Below are positions 2,610 through 49,103 of a stretch of DNA of 64,000 nt, piece by piece. Location of the stretch: assembly GCF_014874095.1 (NCBI RefSeq), contig NZ_JADBEB010000001.1, positions 1,426,001 to 1,490,000 on the forward strand, given 5' to 3'. The position numbers and the translations under genes are program-made. The DNA comes from Plantactinospora soyae. Its GTDB lineage: Bacteria > Actinomycetota > Actinomycetes > Mycobacteriales > Micromonosporaceae. Each line of letters starts with the position of its first letter. Position 1 is the stretch's first letter. Under the pieces are notes generated by a model. The model ran no database searches. It had not been told where the DNA came from and saw nothing but the letters and a program-made list of their open reading frames with translations.

Positions 2610-3542
2610 ATGACCCAGGTACGGCGCGGATACCTCTACGGGCTCGGCGCGTACACGCTGTGGGGTTTCTTTCCGCTGTACATCCGCCTGCTCAAGCCGG
2701 CCGGGCCGATCGAGATCCTGGCCCACCGGGTGGTCTGGTCGGTGGTGTTCGTCGCCCTGGTGCTGGCGGTGGCCCGCAACTGGGGTTTCCTGCGGGGACT
2801 GCGCCGCCGGCCGGCCGCGCTCGCCGGGGTCGTTCTCGCCGCCACGCTGATCGCGGTCAACTGGGGCACCTACATCTACGGCGTGAACTCGGAACGGGTC
2901 GTCGAGACCGCGCTCGGCTACTTCATCAACCCGCTCGTCGTCGTCCTGCTCGGGGTCACCGTGCTGGGTGAACGGCTGCGGGTCGCCCAGTGGGTGGCGC
3001 TCGGCATCGGCGGTGTGGCGGTGGCGGTGCTGGCGTTCGACTACGGCCGGCTGCCGTACCTGGCCCTGACCCTGGCACTGAGCTTCGGCGGCTACAGCCT
3101 GGTGAAGAAGCGGCTCGGACTACCCGCCGCCGAGGGCATGTTCGTCGAGTCGGCCGTGCTCGCGCTGCCCGCGCTCGGCTACCTCGGCTGGCTCACCTGG
3201 CGGTCCGACTCGACCTTCGGCCAGGTCTCCGCCGGGCACACCGCACTGCTGGTGCTGGCCGGTGCGGCCACCGCGATTCCGCTGCTGCTCTTCGCGGGCG
3301 CGGCGAACCGGCTTCCGCTGACCGGGCTGGGCATGTTGCAGTACCTGGCACCGATCCTCCAACTCGGCTTCGGCGTACTGGTCTTCCACGAGCCGATGCC
3401 GCCGGCCCGGCTGGCCGGGTTCGCGCTGGTCTGGCTGGCCCTGGTGGTGTTCACCGTGGACGGGATCCGGCAGGTCCGCCGGTCCCGCAGCGCGCTGCTG
3501 GCCGCCACCGCCGAACCGGCCGCCGCGACCGCCGCCCCCTGA
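2610..3542 (+). CDS. rarD: RarD-type EamA-family permease
   Basis: 310 residues with about ten hydrophobic helices. The N-terminus GYLYGLGAYTLWGFFPLYIRLLKP and the HRVVWS motif are characteristic of RarD proteins of the drug/metabolite transporter superfamily. Two EamA halves are visible, with inner repeats around residues 8-140 and 150-290. Family members are thought to export small metabolites; RarD takes its name from chloramphenicol-related phenotypes, but the substrate here is unknown. It stands alone between eccE and phoD, with no clear operon partner. The start is an ATG without a strong ribosome site. Confidence 0.88.
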   Translation: MTQVRRGYLYGLGAYTLWGFFPLYIRLLKPAGPIEILAHRVVWSVVFVALVLAVARNWGFLRGLRRRPAALAGVVLAATLIAVNWGTYIYGVNSERVVETALGYFINPLVVVLLGVTVLGERLRVAQWVALGIGGVAVAVLAFDYGRLPYLALTLALSFGGYSLVKKRLGLPAAEGMFVESAVLALPALGYLGWLTWRSDSTFGQVSAGHTALLVLAGAATAIPLLLFAGAANRLPLTGLGMLQYLAPILQLGFGVLVFHEPMPPARLAGFALVWLALVVFTVDGIRQVRRSRSALLAATAEPAAATAAP

Positions 3543-5388: not shown

Positions 5389-6315
5389 ATGCGCAGCATT
5401 CTCCGGCGCCGCCTGGCCGGGCTGGCCGGGCTGTCGCCCCGGCGCAGAGCCGTTTCCGCCGCCGTCGCGGTGGTCGCCGCCGTCGCACTCGCCGGTACCA
5501 CAATGGCCGTCTCCGGAGCCGGGCCGGCGGACGCCACCGGGTCCGGTCAGAACACGCGGCTGAGCCTCGGCTCCGACGTGACCCAGGTGGCGGTGAACCC
5601 GGTCCCCTGCGCCAATCAGGGCTTCGAGCTGCGGTTCGGCAACGTGGGCAGCTCAGAGGTGTACGCCGACGCGTTCCTGGAGGCACCCGCACCGCTGGTG
5701 CTGTCCCGGTACCTGGTCTCCAGCTACCTGCCGGCCGGCTACACGCTCAAGGTGAAGATCACGGTGACGGCACCCCGGGCCACCCCGCCGGGCCGGTACG
5801 AGGTCACCGTGCGGGCCGGCGGGGAGCGGCTCTCGGTACCGGTCGAGGTCGTCGCGCCGCCGGTCGACGGGACCGGGAATCTGGCCAGGTACGTACCCGT
5901 CTCGGCATCCTCGGAGAACCTGCCCACCTACCCGGCCTGCGGCGCGGTGGACGGCGACCGGGACTCCAACCACTGGGCGTCCACCACCGGCTGGAACGAC
6001 TCCACCCGGGGCACCTTCCCGGACTGGCTCCAGGTGACGTTCGACCGGCCGCAGACCGTCGGGCGGGTCGACCTGTACACGCTCGACTCCGCCCGCTACC
6101 CGGCGACCGGGTACGGCCTGCGGGACTGGGATGTGCAGGTCTCCTCCGGCGGCGGGGCCTGGCAGACCGTCGGGCAGGTACGCGGCAACCTCGTCGGCAT
6201 GGTCAGCACGACGTTTCCGCCGGTGAGCGTGGATGCGGTCCGGATCGTCACGCTCGCCAGCAACGAGGGAGTCACCTACTCCCGGATCGTGGAGTTGGAG
6301 ATCTACGCCTCCTGA
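5389..6315 (+). CDS. secreted protein with C-terminal F5/8 type C (discoidin) domain
   Basis: 308 residues from ATG 5389, which has a GAGAGGGG ribosome site; another ATG at 5374 overlaps the phoD stop. A signal peptide (hydrophobic stretch about residues 22-42, ending in ADA) is followed by a beta-rich domain (about 50-160) and a discoidin-like carbohydrate-binding domain (about 165-308), recognisable from SASSENLPTYPACGAVDGD, HWAS and the DWLQV strand. No catalytic motif is seen. It follows phoD by 11 bases and is probably in the same transcript, which suggests a cell-wall or polysaccharide-binding role in phosphate-starved cells. The exact ligand is unknown. Confidence 0.8.
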   Translation: MRSILRRRLAGLAGLSPRRRAVSAAVAVVAAVALAGTTMAVSGAGPADATGSGQNTRLSLGSDVTQVAVNPVPCANQGFELRFGNVGSSEVYADAFLEAPAPLVLSRYLVSSYLPAGYTLKVKITVTAPRATPPGRYEVTVRAGGERLSVPVEVVAPPVDGTGNLARYVPVSASSENLPTYPACGAVDGDRDSNHWASTTGWNDSTRGTFPDWLQVTFDRPQTVGRVDLYTLDSARYPATGYGLRDWDVQVSSGGGAWQTVGQVRGNLVGMVSTTFPPVSVDAVRIVTLASNEGVTYSRIVELEIYAS

Positions 6316-40872: not shown

Positions 40873-40877
40873 TCAGC
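40819..40877. repeat. three short tandem repeats at the mqnC 3' end
   Basis: GACTGCCAGTCAGCTCGGC (40819-40837), a 21-base version (40838-40858) and GACTTCCGGTCAGCTCAGC (40859-40877) form a degenerate tandem array. The last unit overlaps the mqnC stop at 40873. It may be duplication of the gene end. Confidence 0.6.
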
Positions 40878-42063
40878 GCGCCTCGACGAGCGGCAGGGTA
40901 CGGCCGACGCCGCCACCGGGCAGCGCGATCGAGGAGAAGTGCGAGACCACCCGGTCGTCGGTCGGATCGTCCGCCGGGGTGTGGTGCACCGCGAGATGCC
41001 GGTAGAGCGTGTCCCGCTGGGCCGGAATCCGGCCGGCGGAACGGATCATCCAGATCAGCTCGTGCAGGTTGGACCGGTGCTTGGCACCGGCCGAGGAGAT
41101 GACGTTCTCCTCCAGCATGATCGAGCCGAGGTCGTCGACCCCCATGTGCAGGGCGAGCTGGCCGACGTCCTTTCCGGTGGTCAGCCAGGACGCCTGAAGG
41201 TGCGGGACGGTCTCGAAGAACAACCGGGCCACCGCGATCAGCCGCAGGTACTCCAGGGTGGTCGCCTGGGTACGCCCCTTGAGATGGTTGTTCTCCGCCT
41301 GGTACGTCCACGGAATGAAGGACCGGAAGCCCCCGGTACGGTCCTGGACGTCCCGGATCATCCGCATGTGCTCGATCCGCTCGGCGTTCGTCTCGCCGGT
41401 GCCCATCATCATCGTCGCGGTGGACTCGATCCCTTGGCGGTGGGCGAGTTCCATCACCTCGAGCCAGCGGGCACCCGACTCCTTCAGCGGAGCGATGGCC
41501 TTACGCGGCCGGTCCGGCAGCATCTCGGCGCCGGCACCCGCGATCGAGTCCAGCCCGGCCGTCTTGATCCGGCTGATCGCCTCGTCGAGCGAGACGCCGG
41601 AGACCTTCGCCATGTGCAGGATCTCGCTCGGCCCGATCGAGTGGATCACGAGCTGCGGGTACGCCTTCTTGACCGAGGAGAAGAGTTCCTCGTAGTACTC
41701 CACGCCGTAGTCGGGGTGGTGGCCACCCTGCAACATCACCTGGGTCGCGCCCAACTCGACCGCCTCGCCGCACCGGCGCAGGATCTCCTCGGTCGGGTGG
41801 GTCCAGCCCTCCTTGTGCTTGGGCGCACGGTAGAAGGCGCAGAACTTGCAGGCGGTCACGCAGACGTTGGTGTAGTTGATGTTGCGGTCGATCAGGTACG
41901 TCACGATGTTGTCCGGGTACCGCCGTCGGCGTACCGCGTCCGCCGCCTCGCCCAGCGGGTGCAGGGGCGCCTCGGTGTAGAGCAGCAGCGCCTCCTCGGG
42001 CGTGATCCGCCCGCCGTCCGCGCCGCGCTGCAGGATGCTGTCGATTTCCCGGCTCAACGTCAC
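40873..42063 (-). CDS. mqnC: cyclic dehypoxanthinyl futalosine synthase (radical SAM)
   Basis: 396 residues from GTG 42063. The radical-SAM cluster motif is C68-x3-C72-x2-C75 (CVTACKFC), followed by AFYRAPKHKEGW. The C-terminus has SAGRIPAQRDTLYRHL, as in MqnC. It cyclises dehypoxanthine futalosine in the futalosine route to menaquinone. MqnA is encoded at 54082 in this window; MqnB, D and E are not seen here. The confusable paralogue MqnE has a different core motif and length. Confidence 0.9.
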   Translation of the reverse strand: MTLSREIDSILQRGADGGRITPEEALLLYTEAPLHPLGEAADAVRRRRYPDNIVTYLIDRNINYTNVCVTACKFCAFYRAPKHKEGWTHPTEEILRRCGEAVELGATQVMLQGGHHPDYGVEYYEELFSSVKKAYPQLVIHSIGPSEILHMAKVSGVSLDEAISRIKTAGLDSIAGAGAEMLPDRPRKAIAPLKESGARWLEVMELAHRQGIESTATMMMGTGETNAERIEHMRMIRDVQDRTGGFRSFIPWTYQAENNHLKGRTQATTLEYLRLIAVARLFFETVPHLQASWLTTGKDVGQLALHMGVDDLGSIMLEENVISSAGAKHRSNLHELIWMIRSAGRIPAQRDTLYRHLAVHHTPADDPTDDRVVSHFSSIALPGGGVGRTLPLVEAR

Positions 42064-42183
42064 AGAACCGAGGGTACGCCGCACCCGGTCGGACCAGCAC
42101 TCGCCGCCCGTGGATGTCGGCGGGCCCACCCTCGGGCCGTCGGGAGCCCTCTCCGAGGACGCGTCTGCGTGCCGCGTCGACAA

Positions 42184-42264
42184 GGGGTGCGTTGCCGGCC
42201 GCACCGGTGAGGGGCGCGTCGCGGGCCGTACCGGTGAGGGGCGCGTCGCGGGCCGTACCGGATC
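42184..42264. repeat. three tandem 27-bp repeats between mqnC and the TPR gene
   Basis: Units at 42184-42210, 42211-42237 and 42238-42264 are 27 bp each. The second and third are identical over the first 24 bases; the first is more diverged. The array ends 9 bases before the TPR gene's ATG. It lies in the divergent control region and could space or contain regulator sites. Confidence 0.8.
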
Positions 42265-43421: not shown

Positions 43422-44714
43422 TCAGGTGGTGCAGCTTCCGTTGTCCGGGTTCACGCACTTGGCCCGGCTCCACAGCGTCTCGAAGTTGTTGTGGAAGTCG
43501 TTCCAGACGGTCGGGTGTTCGATCTTCATCAGCGTCTCGTCGTGATCGGTCAGCGCGGGGTCGGTGACGTTGTGCGAACCGGTGAAGACCACGCTCCGGC
43601 CGGCCACCCCGGCGAAGGTGCCCCGGATGATGATGTTCTTCGAGTGCAGGGTGACGACCCGGCCGTCGACGTTGCTGGCCTCGGCGTCGTGGTACTTCTT
43701 CAGCGAGACGTTCGGCTGACCGTTCAGCGTGGCGTACGCGGTGGCGCCCATCGTGCCGTAGACGACCCGTACCCGGCAGCCCATCCGGCCGATCCGGCGC
43801 AGTTCGCTGGCGACCTGCGGGCGGGCGTCGGTGAACTGGGCGTGCGCCACGTCCACGGAACAGCCGCTGGCGTACGCGTTCACCTCGGCCAGCCGGTTCG
43901 CCAGGGTGTCACTGTCCGCCCGGGGCGAGTGGTAGACGGTGACGTCCGTGGTCGGCGACTTGTAGTAGCCGTTGGCGGCGTTGAAGTAGTCGTTGTTCTT
44001 GCGCTGCGCCCGCATGTCGTTGAAGTACGCGGTGAAGTGGTCGTACAGCTCGTAGTCCTCGTGCACGACCAGCGCGCTGTTGAACAGGTTGTTCTGGCTG
44101 AAGGTGAGGTTCTGCGAGCTGACGAAGACCACCCGCTTCATCGTGCCGCTGGTGGAGAAGGTGAAGACCTTGTTGTGGTTGATCGAGTTGCTCTTGTTGC
44201 CGATGCAGGCCGTCGAGCCGGACACCGTGGACGAGGTCTTGCCGCAGATCACCAGGTCGTCGAGGTTGGCCGAGTTCAGCACCGTCATCGCGGCGTTGTC
44301 CGCGCCGGTGTTCACCCCGCCGCCGGTCTCGTCCAGGACGATCCGGACGATCACGCCCCGGGCCTGGGCCCGCTTGAGCGCCTCGGCCACCACCGGAGAA
44401 CTCCAGCTGTACATGAGGCCCCGGATGTAGCCGCCGGCCGGAGCGCCGTCGGCGAGCCGGACCAGCTCGTCTTCGATGGTCCGGTCCCGGGTGCCGTCGT
44501 CGGCCGGGATATTGAACCGGGTGTACGCCGAGAACGGGTCGGCCGCCGTCACCGCGCCGTCATCGGCGTCGAGCGGGCCGGCCGGTGCGGCTGGCACCGA
44601 CGGGCTGGCCGCCATGGCGGGCGGTACGGGCAGCGCCGCCGCCAGCAGGCCGAGCGCCGCACAGGACGCCAACCCGATCCGGACCTGGACACGACGTGTA
44701 CGGAGCATCCTCAT
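43422..44714 (-). CDS. secreted phospholipase-D-like protein
   Basis: 430 residues with a signal peptide (about 1-35, cleaved after AMAA). Two HKD-type motifs are present in short form: H180-N-K182 with SSQN, and H357-S-K359 with GSHN. The Asp that usually follows HxK by four residues is not at the expected place, which is also seen in some PLD-superfamily nucleases and toxins. Conserved IRGLMYSW and VIVRIVLDE lie in the first half. It probably cuts or transfers phosphodiesters outside the cell. Ribosome site and promoter are not obvious. Confidence 0.82.
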   Translation of the reverse strand: MRMLRTRRVQVRIGLASCAALGLLAAALPVPPAMAASPSVPAAPAGPLDADDGAVTAADPFSAYTRFNIPADDGTRDRTIEDELVRLADGAPAGGYIRGLMYSWSSPVVAEALKRAQARGVIVRIVLDETGGGVNTGADNAAMTVLNSANLDDLVICGKTSSTVSGSTACIGNKSNSINHNKVFTFSTSGTMKRVVFVSSQNLTFSQNNLFNSALVVHEDYELYDHFTAYFNDMRAQRKNNDYFNAANGYYKSPTTDVTVYHSPRADSDTLANRLAEVNAYASGCSVDVAHAQFTDARPQVASELRRIGRMGCRVRVVYGTMGATAYATLNGQPNVSLKKYHDAEASNVDGRVVTLHSKNIIIRGTFAGVAGRSVVFTGSHNVTDPALTDHDETLMKIEHPTVWNDFHNNFETLWSRAKCVNPDNGSCTT

Positions 44715-44877: not shown

Positions 44878-45096
44878 TCAGTCCTCCGGCGGCGGTGGTT
44901 CGTCCGCTCCCCTGGCCTTCCACGGCTGGTGTTCCTCGATCCAGCGCTCTACGTCCGCCGCCCACCAGACCGCGCCACCGGCCAGACGGTCCACGGGCTC
45001 CGGGAAGTCTGTCCTGCTGGTGAGCTGTACGACGCGAACCCGGGACACGCCAAGGCGCTCCTGCAGTTCCGCTGAGCCGTACAGCTTCCGGACCAT
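44878..45096 (-). CDS. small helix-turn-helix protein (AlpA/excisionase-like)
   Basis: 72 residues from ATG 45096, with GGAAG at 8-base spacing. The pattern YGSAELQERLGVSRVRVVQLTSR and FPEPVDRLAGGAVWWAADVERWIEE is the MerR/AlpA-type winged HTH of small regulators and phage or plasmid excisionases. The tail is acidic and Pro-rich. It is divergent from a small Cys-rich gene, with a palindrome between them. Such proteins occur both in mobile elements and as stable regulators. Confidence 0.68.
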   Translation of the reverse strand: MVRKLYGSAELQERLGVSRVRVVQLTSRTDFPEPVDRLAGGAVWWAADVERWIEEHQPWKARGADEPPPPED

Positions 45097-45193
45097 GCCC
45101 GTAGCTTCCGTATGCCAGCCCCTTGCAGATCTGAAAGTCCTACCCGGGTCACCCATATGTGCTGGTGGAGCCACTTCCTGCCATTCGAGACCA

Positions 45194-45716: not shown

Positions 45717-46508
45717 ATGCCCGTACGCCAACACCCCGAGGATCGCCTCGACTCGCTGCTGGACGCCGACGACGGCACCGCGCTCGCCCGGTTCTGCATG
45801 TACGACGACGACGGCGAATCCGTCGCCGCCGACGTACAGCCGCTGCCCGGGGCCGCCCTGACCGCGGTAGCCGCGCAGGCCCGGCGCGATCTCGCCGGGG
45901 TGCGACTGGACACGCCGGACGAGGGGCTGGCCGACGCCCTGGTGGCGGGTGGGCTCGCACTCCACCAGGCCACCACGGAGTTACGTCACGACCTGGCCGA
46001 ACTGCCGGCGCCGCCGGTACTGCCCGCCGGCTGGACGCTTGCCGAACCGGGCTGGGACGCCGACCTCGCGCGGGCGTGCGACGCGGCGTACGGCCCGGAC
46101 CATCCGAACTGGCGGTGGCAGTCCGGCGACAACGAGCAGATGCGGGCGATATTCGACGCCGGCGATCCGGTCCCGCCGCTGCGGTCTGCCTCGGCCCGGG
46201 TGGTGGGTCCGGACGGGCGCAGCGCCGGCCACGTGCTGTGCGCCGGCCCGGTGCCGTGGACCGACGACGTATGCGGCTGGATCCTCGACATCGCGGTGGC
46301 GCCGCACGCCCAGGGCAACGGACTCGGCCGGGCCCTGCTGACGCACGCCCTGCGCGGCACCCGCGAGGCCGGGTTGTCGACCCTCGGGCTCTCGGTGCTG
46401 GATCGCAACCCGGCCCGCCGGCTGTACGACAACGCCGGTTTCCGGACGCACGCCCGGGTGTTCTCGGTGCTGCTGCCCCCGACCGCCGACAGCACCGGAA
46501 CGCAGTGA
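45717..46508 (+). CDS. GNAT-family N-acetyltransferase
   Basis: 263 residues. The N-terminal 90 residues are a separate, unrecognised segment. The GNAT core lies at about 100-255: acetyl-CoA site ILDIAVAPHAQGNGLGRALL (about 183-202) and the C-terminal NPARRLYDNAGFR. No ribosome site is clear. Substrate unknown; such enzymes modify small amines, peptides or proteins. It stands between small genes of the accessory stretch. Confidence 0.8.
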   Translation: MPVRQHPEDRLDSLLDADDGTALARFCMYDDDGESVAADVQPLPGAALTAVAAQARRDLAGVRLDTPDEGLADALVAGGLALHQATTELRHDLAELPAPPVLPAGWTLAEPGWDADLARACDAAYGPDHPNWRWQSGDNEQMRAIFDAGDPVPPLRSASARVVGPDGRSAGHVLCAGPVPWTDDVCGWILDIAVAPHAQGNGLGRALLTHALRGTREAGLSTLGLSVLDRNPARRLYDNAGFRTHARVFSVLLPPTADSTGTQ

Positions 46509-46576: not shown

Positions 46577-46852
46577 TCAGTTGTACATGTACAGGTAGTA
46601 GTAGCCCTGCGGCTCACCGCTGCGCCACTCGTAGTGGCAGCTGTAGTAACGCCACGCTCCACCGGCGACGAGGCTGTCGCCGAAGTAGCGGCAGGCTTCC
46701 AGGGTGTAGTAGGAGCCGAAGGGGTAGTTGTCGGGACCGGCAATCGCGGCCGGGCGGGCGACCGGCGCCGCGGCCTGCGCCGGGGCGCCAAGGCCGACCA
46801 GCAGTGCGCCGCTGGCGCTGGCGAGCGCCACCATCGTCCGGACTCTACGCAT
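46577..46852 (-). CDS. small secreted Tyr-rich protein
   Basis: 91 residues from ATG 46852 with GGAGG at 5-base spacing. A clear signal peptide ends at AQA (about residue 27). The mature part of about 64 residues has only two cysteines (C54, C72), which could form a disulfide, and eleven tyrosines, ending in a YYYLYMYN-like tail. No family recognised. Small secreted proteins of this sort are frequent in Micromonospora and Streptomyces; a role in signalling, adhesion or enzyme inhibition is possible but unproven. Confidence 0.65.
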   Translation of the reverse strand: MRRVRTMVALASASGALLVGLGAPAQAAAPVARPAAIAGPDNYPFGSYYTLEACRYFGDSLVAGGAWRYYSCHYEWRSGEPQGYYYLYMYN

Positions 46853-47242
46853 GGGACCTCCACGGAGTGAGCGTGCTTTCGCTGCACACAAAGATAGTCA
46901 ATCTTCGATCTATAGCTCATGGCCCACCGAAGCTTGCCGCCATCCGCGCAAGCCCACCAATCCGTCGATGGTGATCTATGTCCACCTTCATCGAAACGAA
47001 GGCAACCACCCATGCGTCGTAGTCGACTACCACGGTGTCGGTGATCGGGCCGGACTGGCAGCGTGCGGCGAGCGGTGACCCGGTCGAGCACTGCTCCGTT
47101 CTCAGTTACTGGACCGCGAGCGCCGCAACCAGCCGTGGCGGCCTACCAGCTACGACTGGCCGTCCAGGCCAGCTCCGGTCGGCAGTCAGACAGCCGCGCA
47201 ACACCGGCTCAGATGTCATAGGGCGCGAGTAGGATCCCCGGC
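46853..47242. other. 390-base gene-poor stretch with promoter-like and duplicated sequence
   Basis: The left part (46880-46920) is AT-rich and on the minus strand contains TTGACT, a probable promoter of the secreted peptide gene. The middle contains the diverged paaE end at 47015-47061. The right part up to 47242 leads to the putative antitoxin gene, with no evident ribosome site beyond GGATCCCCGGC. No intact gene is seen. Confidence 0.5.
47015..47061 (-). pseudogene. diverged fragment of a paaE 3' end
   Basis: The 47 bases match 47984-48030, the end of intact paaE, at 43 of 47 positions. Read on the minus strand it encodes CQSGPITDTVVVDYD, against CQSSPITDTVVIDYD in the real protein. Most differences are at third codon positions or conservative, so it once evolved as a coding sequence. 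No similarity continues on either side. It marks one edge of a 920-base segment that contains the PIN-like pair. Confidence 0.75.
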
Positions 47243-47533
47243 ATGACGGACTCTGACGGCCGGAGGCGGGCGCACGCCCTGGTCGACGAACTTGTCGGTC
47301 CCTCGGACGAGACCGCCGACCGGGCGGTCGAGGTGCTGCACGCACATGCCGCAGCACTTGCCTGGGTGCGCGACACCACGGGAAGTTACCCCGCTCCGCC
47401 CATGGTCACGGCCGCGCTGAACGAGGCAGCTACCGCGCTCCGCAGCGGGGGCGACTGGCGCGACCCGGTGGCCGCCCTCGGGCAGGCAGCTGTCGAAGCA
47501 CTCACCGCTTACCGTTCGACCACGGCAACGTGA
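47243..47533 (+). CDS. putative antitoxin of a PIN-like pair
   Basis: 96 residues, mostly helical, Ala-rich, with no recognisable DNA-binding motif. It overlaps the next gene by 4 bases (GTGA), typical of translationally coupled toxin-antitoxin genes. Size and order fit an antitoxin placed before a PIN toxin. The call depends on the neighbour. It lies on the segment flanked by paaE 3'-end copies. Confidence 0.5.
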   Translation: MTDSDGRRRAHALVDELVGPSDETADRAVEVLHAHAAALAWVRDTTGSYPAPPMVTAALNEAATALRSGGDWRDPVAALGQAAVEALTAYRSTTAT

Positions 47534-47925
47534 CCGGATACATCCTCGACGACCTCGCCCTGTCCACCGGTCTCACGCCCGTCGGCAGCGAACACCACCG
47601 TCGTGAGTTGTCCAGGCTGCTGCGCGCGGCGATTGACGGCGGCCCGACCCTGGACGTTCCGGCGCTCTGCCTCACGGAGGCGGCCACCTCGCGTCAAGCG
47701 CTCGCGGGACATCTCGCCGAGCTCATCGCCGCGGCGCCACCGGGTGCGATTGATCTCTGCGGCCTCACCCGGACCGATCATCTCGACACGCTCCGAATCA
47801 ATCACCCAGAACTCTCCTGGCCCGCTGTACATGCCGCGAATCATGCCCTCTCAACCGGGCTGCCGATCCTCACTCCGGACGCCACGCGTTACACCGGCGT
47901 ACCGGTCAATGTGCTGTCCCTATAG
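47530..47925 (+). CDS. PIN-like domain protein, putative toxin
   Basis: 131 residues from GTG 47530. The pattern fits a compact PIN nuclease: Asp7/Asp8 in YILDDLAL, then VPALCLTEAA with E50, a HAANHALSTGLPILTPD stretch with D117, and a C-terminal VPVNVLSL strand. The third acidic residue normally preceding the AxxAxA helix is not evident (SWPAVHAANHA), so the site may be altered or use E94. If active it would cut RNA, with the upstream gene as antidote. No closer family is recognised. Confidence 0.52.
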   Translation: MTGYILDDLALSTGLTPVGSEHHRRELSRLLRAAIDGGPTLDVPALCLTEAATSRQALAGHLAELIAAAPPGAIDLCGLTRTDHLDTLRINHPELSWPAVHAANHALSTGLPILTPDATRYTGVPVNVLSL

Positions 47926-47978
47926 GAAGCCACTCCAATCCGCGGATTGCAGCTTGGCCACCAGCAACCGGCGCCCAC

Positions 47979-49103
47979 TCAACCGTCGTAGTCGATTACG
48001 ACCGTGTCGGTGATCGGGCTGGACTGGCAGGTCAGGACGTACCCGGCGGCCACCTCGTCCGGCTCCAGGGCGTAGTTGCGGGCCATCGTCACCTCGCCGG
48101 AGACGACCCGGGCCCGGCAGGTCGAGCAGACCCCGCCCTTGCAGGCGTACGGCAGCTCACCGCGCACCTTCAGTGCGGCGTCCAGCACCCGTTCGTCGCG
48201 GCCCATCCGGAAACTCGACGTCCGGCCGTCGAGCTGGATCGTCACCTCGCTGCCGGTCGCCGCCACGCTCGGTCGGACCGGCGGCGCGGGCGGCTCGTCC
48301 ACATGGAACAGTTCGGCATGTACGGCCTCCGCCGGCACGCCCCGGGCCGCCAGCGCCGCCCGCGCGTCGAGCACCAGTCCGTACGGGCCGCAGAGGAACC
48401 ACTCGTCGACCCGCTCCGCCGGCACGATGGTGTCGAACAGCCGACCGAGCCGCTCGGCGTCGATCCGGCCGGAGAGCAGCGGCGACTCACCGGGTTCCCG
48501 GGACAGCACGTGCACCAGGTGCAGCCGTTCCCGGTACCGGTCCTTCAGGTCGGCCAGCTCCTCCACGAACATCACCGTCCGGGCGTACCGGTTGCCGTAC
48601 ACCAGGGTCACGGTGCTGGCCGGCTCGACGGCGAGTGCGGTCGCGACCAGCGACAGCACCGGGGTGATGCCCGACCCCGCGACCACGGCGGCGTAGTGCC
48701 GGACCCGGTCCGGCGCGAACGCCGTGCTGAAGTGCCCGAGCGGCGGCAGTACGTCCACCGTGTCCCCGGCCCGCAGCGTGGTGACGGCGAACCGGGAGAA
48801 CGCGCCGCCGGGCACCTCACGGACCCCGATCCGCAGCAGCCCGGCCTCGGCCAGCTCCGCCGGGGTCGAGCAGATCGAGTACGACCGCCGCACCTCCCCC
48901 GGTACGCCGTCCGGCGCGCCGACGTCGACGAACCGGCGCACGGTGAGGTGCTGCCCGGCCCGGAAGGCGAAACCGGCCCGCAGTTCGGCCGGTACCTCGA
49001 AGGTGACCGCGACCGCGTCGTCGGTCAGCCGGTCGACCGCCTGGACCGACAACGGATGGAAGACCGGGCGGCGACGGACCGGCCGGTTGATCGTTACGCT
49101 CAA
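47979..49103 (-). CDS. paaE: phenylacetyl-CoA epoxidase reductase subunit PaaE
   Basis: 374 residues. FAD motif RSYSIC (73-78), NAD(P)-binding segments GSGITPVLSL and CGPYGLVLD, and a C-terminal plant-type 2Fe-2S ferredoxin with C321, C326, C329 and C359. It passes electrons from NADPH to the PaaABC oxygenase. Overlaps paaD by 4 bases and ends the operon. Its 3' end has a diverged partial copy at 47015. Confidence 0.95.
   Translation of the reverse strand: MSVTINRPVRRRPVFHPLSVQAVDRLTDDAVAVTFEVPAELRAGFAFRAGQHLTVRRFVDVGAPDGVPGEVRRSYSICSTPAELAEAGLLRIGVREVPGGAFSRFAVTTLRAGDTVDVLPPLGHFSTAFAPDRVRHYAAVVAGSGITPVLSLVATALAVEPASTVTLVYGNRYARTVMFVEELADLKDRYRERLHLVHVLSREPGESPLLSGRIDAERLGRLFDTIVPAERVDEWFLCGPYGLVLDARAALAARGVPAEAVHAELFHVDEPPAPPVRPSVAATGSEVTIQLDGRTSSFRMGRDERVLDAALKVRGELPYACKGGVCSTCRARVVSGEVTMARNYALEPDEVAAGYVLTCQSSPITDTVVIDYDG

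Follow-up and report, generated by a model that had tools for sequence, protein, structure and literature searches.

A displaced paaE 3′ end beside a two-gene insert in Plantactinospora soyae: a possible scar of recombination between versions of the paaE locus

In Plantactinospora soyae, the 3′ end of paaE, the gene for 1,2-phenylacetyl-CoA epoxidase subunit PaaE (47979 to 49103, minus strand; TIGR02160, 458.9 bits against a cut-off of 420.8), occurs twice, and a pair of small genes lies between the two copies. How did this arrangement arise, and what is the pair? Coordinates are those of the window, the whole 64,000-nt stretch of DNA that was analyzed. The working 3′ end (47984 to 48030, minus strand) matches positions 47015 to 47061 at 43 of 47 bases in the same orientation, which bears out the repeat described in the initial annotation. 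Extended without gaps, the similarity covers 61 nt (47001 to 47061 and 47970 to 48030, the latter being the repeat unit of the working end), of which 52 are identical, including 9 of the 14 nt past the stop codon; a search of the 9 kb downstream of paaE returned the repeat at a BLAST E value of 4e-15. The last 52 nt of the gene correspond to 47010 to 47061, and the similarity of the second copy can be traced to 47001. Chance similarity was ruled out with 1500 random 47-mers from the window, each compared without gaps to the same strand of the 3 kb upstream of it: the highest number of matching bases was 37, and none of the 1500 reached 43. In a DNA search of the organism’s own 9.7–Mbp single-contig genome, no third copy of the paaE end was found at E ≤ 0.001. 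The fragment at 47015 to 47061 has lost the stop codon (TGG compared to TGA in paaE), and over the 61 bases the fragment and the working copy differ at 9.

To decide which copy is old, we compared the seven available genomes of the genus, the window’s own included. In the nearest congener, G001 (92% identity in PaaE), and in G002, the paaE 3′ end passes unbroken into sequence homologous to the window from 47014 down to the gene of a small secreted-type protein (46577 to 46891, minus strand), which stands at the equivalent place behind paaE in both. The alignment from paaE to this neighbor has 87% identity over 502 bases in G001 and 78% over 1412 bases in G002. The next gene of the old order encodes a GNAT acetyltransferase (45717 to 46508, plus strand; PF00583). 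The uninterrupted paaE ends of the two relatives indicate that the fragment (47015 to 47061, minus strand), which is continuous with their downstream sequence, marks the place where paaE originally ended and that the sequence from 47062 on is an addition. Judged by this comparison, the fragment appears to be a former paaE end that was displaced and is decaying, and the 917 intervening bases (47062 to 47978) appear to have arrived later. The remaining four congeners have other genes behind paaE. The pair and the duplicate occur together in one of the seven genomes. In the other six, no intact pair was found at E ≤ 0.001, and no second paaE terminus was seen in the 9 kb read downstream of the gene in G001, G002, and G006 or in the 1.5 kb read in G003, G004, and G005. 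Within the genus, the pair is found only where the duplicate is, as the initial annotation had expected for an insertion, with the reservation that G002 keeps a 69-base relic of the pair’s first gene and that the reading covered only 1.5 kb in three genomes.

The added segment had been described as 920 bases holding only the pair, which overlooks its left edge. There, from 47062 to a point between 47117 and 47135 (plus strand), lies a relic of the 3′ end of another gene, ORF140, which matches seven genomes of genus g24 (G262, G278, G197, G203, G246, G185, and G284) with 79 to 84% identity over 54 to 71 bases and with a few single-base gaps in the alignment. The search with the relic also gave many short matches elsewhere, 124 of 354 family genomes having some match at E ≤ 0.001. 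ORF140 is a 123–amino acid gene that has no family in Pfam or NCBIfam and adjoins a DUF5753 helix-turn-helix regulator; its presence at the matching place was established in five fetched loci, by direct reading or by tblastn. It is found in 37 of the 354 family genomes, 25 of which belong to g24, and in none of the seven genomes of the window’s genus at E ≤ 0.001. In 23 of the 25 g24 carriers, all or part of ORF140 is located on the downstream side of paaE, in convergent orientation and no more than ~3.1 kb away: the two genes stand tail to tail on one 3.3-kb locus in 14 genomes, and coordinates or fetched stretches place them within this distance in nine more (G251, G292, G192, G203, G238, G259, G185, G278, and G162). 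In the g24 genomes G161 and G252, as well as in 11 ORF140 loci of other genera, paaE is outside the locus examined.

Since the insert carries at its left edge the tail of a gene neighboring paaE in other genomes, we favor an exchange at the paaE locus that carried the pair along. Specifically, we give about an even chance (probability ~0.5) to the view that the duplicate was left by recombination in which two versions of the locus met, with paaE as the anchor and an illegitimate join inside ORF140. In version A, paaE would have been followed immediately by the small secreted gene, the order seen in G001 and G002; version B would have had ORF140, then the pair, and then paaE. Most likely, DNA of version B would have entered the cell and, on one side, aligned with the resident chromosome by its homology in paaE. 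On the other side, a position in paaE 52 bases from the gene end would have been joined without homology to the interior of ORF140, leaving the G001-like version to the left of the join and ORF140, the pair, and paaE to its right. The ORF140 tail, the pair, and a complete paaE end would have been installed in this way, and the final 52 bases of the resident gene, cut off next to the old neighbor, would then have lost their stop codon. A circularized fragment integrating by a single crossover in the paaE end could have produced the same structure. We infer that transfer proceeded in this direction, with a homologous anchor and without a recombinase. Recombination of an ordinary sort was probably at work, at a locus with much turnover, and the case adds an instance to a kind of event already known. 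The initial annotation had offered two options, an element that inserted at the gene end and restored it or a replacement of paaE from a relative with the pair carried along. What stands is that the added segment appears to have displaced the old end and supplied a working one, and the ORF140 tail favors the second option; an origin from a foreign paaE lineage is not supported.

Descent of the two ends was assessed among 132 paaE 3′ ends, those of the window and of 131 fetched genomes, the latter drawn from 250 family genomes matching at E ≤ 1e-120 and consisting mainly of the top of that list and of ORF140 carriers. The motif GATCACC (Ile codon of PITD) is present in both the window’s paaE and the fragment and is absent from the 131 other ends. 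The best match of the fragment is the resident paaE (43 of 47 bases), followed by a next best of 42 of 47. The working copy, in turn, matches the g24 genome G206 at 43 of 47 bases, equal to its match with the fragment. Because of this tie, 47 bases cannot prove that the copies are sisters or settle their descent, and our confidence in the exchange is limited to about one half. The proposal that the fragment came from the paaE of another lineage, with its closest relative in a different genus, is unsupported given the shared codon and the ranking of the 132 ends, among which the resident gene is closest; the tie of the working copy with G206 and the small number of bases are the reserve on this result. 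A foreign end in the working copy likewise left no significant signal: relative to G001, 9 differences fall within the terminal 75 bases of paaE, compared to 82 of 1050 in the rest of the gene (p = 0.13), and for single 75-base windows of paaE other genomes are sometimes nearer than G001.

A second, independent scar was detected in the g24 genome G192. It is a 35-base piece of that genome’s own paaE end (91% identity, one base deleted), located 1.5 kb downstream of paaE (L133, 1515 to 1548 downstream) and ahead of ORF140, and it starts ~9 nt nearer the stop codon than the window’s scar. The two-gene insert in G192 differs from the window’s pair and consists of what we take to be an SDR-type gene and a small lipoprotein-like gene. 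Hits covering the paaE terminus and lying before mqnC, the conserved gene at the far end of the variable interval behind paaE (40873 to 42204, minus strand; TIGR03699, 485.9 bits against a cut-off of 428.1), were obtained in these 2 of 132 loci only. Beyond mqnC lay numerous weaker matches to internal segments of the query and, in G273, a short terminal one; all of these were set aside.

Several other histories could lead to a duplicated gene end. The occurrence of GATCACC in both copies and nowhere else among the 132 ends is what would be seen if both copies were resident and the insertion had duplicated a long stretch of its target, and the continuation of the similarity for 14 nt past the stop codon points the same way. 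Such insertion, with a long duplication of the target, is described for restriction-modification genes in Helicobacter (PMC1643837, which cites Nobusato et al. 2000); there, as here, a small unit of selfish type lies between long direct repeats of the target. Unlike that case, the edge of the paaE insert is a relic of a gene neighboring paaE, and the copies have diverged at 9 of 61 bases. Target duplication gives no account of an insert that begins with the tail of a gene abutting paaE elsewhere, and we regard it as conceivable if rather unlikely. The ORF140 truncation would be accounted for if the roles were reversed, that is, if version B were resident and a version A relative had contributed the secreted-gene block together with a shortened paaE end, so that ORF140 was cut. 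The G002 relic of p96, the first gene of the pair, which places the pair or a near relative once in the interval behind paaE in that genome too, also speaks for this course. Yet it is unlikely, as it would require the secreted-gene block to enter this genome (G000) separately from G001 and G002. Divergence from G001 is of similar size on the two flanks, left and right, and does not discriminate the direction of transfer.

An integrative element would be expected to leave direct repeats, here of 47 to 61 nt, at the 3′ terminus of a gene whose end it restores. A remnant of such an element, with the paaE 3′ end as attachment site and the integrase lost, would thus agree with the repeats and with the occurrence of scars at the paaE end in two genomes. 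However, p96, p131, and the ORF140 tail are all that was identified in 47062 to 47978, with no integrase there; the two scars start ~9 nt apart, with no fixed core seen; and ten representative interval genes included no integrase. We consider this origin highly improbable. Even less can be said for a tandem duplication of the paaE end with the pair in this lineage, followed by deletions: it would explain the codon shared by the copies but calls for one duplication plus two deletions and offers no account of the ORF140 tail. The exchange at the paaE locus, which we prefer, has weak points of its own. Among the genomes searched, no fragment-free locus with ORF140, the pair, and paaE, the expected donor arrangement, was found, and ORF140 was not found in any of the seven genomes of the genus at E ≤ 0.001. 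The scar is present in only 2 of 132 loci, and the comparison with G001 (p = 0.13) does not demonstrate an imported paaE end.

The proposed event resembles homology-facilitated illegitimate recombination, which is described in PMC3240628, PMC2884548, and PMC5361080. In both, one homologous and one nonhomologous join admit foreign DNA without a mobile element (PMC3240628 and PMC2884548); the known process comes from transformation and conjugation experiments, whereas the paaE case is deduced from a decayed natural scar with no donor in hand. PMC5361080 proposes the same kind of recombination for effector-immunity arrays of Vibrio and also refers to Rhs 3′ regions left as orphans. There, too, a new gene end arrives with linked genes and pushes aside the old one, which is kept downstream; in contrast to paaE, a metabolic gene whose product is unchanged and for which the pair is cargo, the gene itself is in that system a toxin with variable ends. 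The paaE scar offers a legible record of a route by which small accessory genes may be gained with neither an integrase nor a transposase: the border gene remains whole, and its old end marks the join.

The pair consists of p96 (96 amino acids; 47243 to 47533, plus strand) and p131 (131 amino acids; 47530 to 47925, plus strand), which overlap by 4 nt. Both genes are intact, and their composition is unlike that of paaE (GC3 of 0.78 and 0.76 compared to 0.93). Searches for p131 were positive in 10 of 354 family genomes and 6 of 44 genera, in G081 only at an E value of 9e-4; a relative is present in Pseudofrankia asymbiotica, and a profile search was positive in 6 of 396 genomes of the phylum, the window’s genome counted. 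In nine of 11 loci, p131 is accompanied by p96, which is split over two frames in two of the nine. Between the p131 genes of the window and G143, 38, 27, and 79 differences fall on the three codon positions; their concentration on third positions is a sign of selection on p131. As judged from these comparisons, the pair appears to be conserved and sporadic. In G002, a 69-base relic of p96 (81% identical; the upstream, promoter side and 12 codons; L054:12621-12688) lies between the GNAT gene and the secreted gene, joined to the stop codon of the latter, which suggests that the pair or a close relative was once in the interval between paaE and mqnC in more than one lineage.

With type II toxin-antitoxin systems such as VapBC, whose toxin is a PIN protein, the pair has in common two small overlapping genes, a sporadic spread, a partner gene that is adjacent in nine of 11 loci, and a location in an interval that carries clear Phd-PIN pairs in other genomes; the roles of p96 as antitoxin and p131 as toxin are only assumed. 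In contrast to VapBC, no family of toxins, antitoxins, or PIN proteins was matched at cut-off by either protein in searches of Pfam, NCBIfam, and PADLOC. By eye, p131 has what we take to be a PIN-like look, and it had been annotated as such. No PIN domain was matched in the 11 p131 homologs or in the PDB set, in which the best matches of the p131 profile were phage structural proteins (E values of 0.04 to 0.1); comparison of the profile with VapC gave 0.1%, a weak test given that the five VapC sequences used were near-identical. PIN/VapC toxins have conserved acidic catalytic residues. Among the acidic residues of p131, only D7 is invariant in the 11 sequences, and D8 is nearly so. Family, PDB, and profile searches and the pattern of acidic residues thus leave the PIN-like assignment unconfirmed. 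A protein search of phages and plasmids gave no match to the pair, and 34 pattern matches in viral contigs contained no relative. A ribbon-helix-helix start was indicated in the p96 relative of G146 (E value of 0.088) and in the gene preceding a distant p131 relative (0.012 at best), both below the curated cut-off and to be read as hints only.

A small mobile unit flanked by direct repeats was rejected as an explanation for the spread of the pair: among nine homologous loci, only G143 had clear near repeats, and these belong to a nine-copy genomic repeat. This repeat is ~98 nt long and has a conserved hairpin; five of the nine copies lie on one contig and two flank the p96 and p131 homologs (L043:572-669, 2232-2350, 3321-3417, and 5821-5919; also L236 to L240). 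Rfam returned no RNA family at gathering score in stretch L043. The repeat could be a cassette boundary.

The interval between paaE and mqnC was measurable in 123 loci. It ranges from 45 to 5910 bases with a median of 689, and that of the window is the longest. In the window, it also holds a gene for a PLD-domain protein (43422 to 44714, minus strand; PF13091, 88.5 bits). A small open reading frame there, at 44878 to 45174, has a weak helix-turn-helix or AlpA-like match (E value of 0.012, below cut-off). When 13 representative genes were searched in the 123 intervals, Phd- or VapC-like sequence was found in 17, a 175-residue gene in 16 (accompanied in 10 cases by a 131-residue partner that bears no relation in name to p131), a small gene, p136, in 11, ORF140 or the regulator in 10, a Schlafen AlbA_2 gene in five, and an RloB-AAA pair, assigned by PADLOC to AbiL (L178:5652-7621 and L194), in two; 66 intervals matched none of the representatives. 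From this census, the interval appears to be a turnover spot that repeatedly holds toxin-antitoxin and defense genes, and it is a place to seek further toxin-antitoxin or defense-type systems in the family. We found no paper on toxin-antitoxin hot spots in this family. A broader proposal is that p96 and p131 are an undescribed toxin-antitoxin or defense pair, with p131 a PIN relative minus the catalytic acids, that they circulate through the interval by homology-anchored exchange of gene ends without a mobile element, and that the interval is a family-wide defense island fed in this way; we put it forward as a doubtful conjecture.

Three further observations concern the interval and its borders. 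The 175-residue gene and its 131-residue partner (e.g., L222:6405-7363) match no family above cut-off and are a possible two-gene system outside the known families. In G001, a 111–amino acid gene next to mqnC (L053:7400-7732) is PIN-like by eye and has no Pfam match. Last, G241 has two equal-scoring paaE genes (G241:C3:13227-14339 and G241:C4:2129487-2130599), which represent either a duplicated locus or an assembly duplicate.
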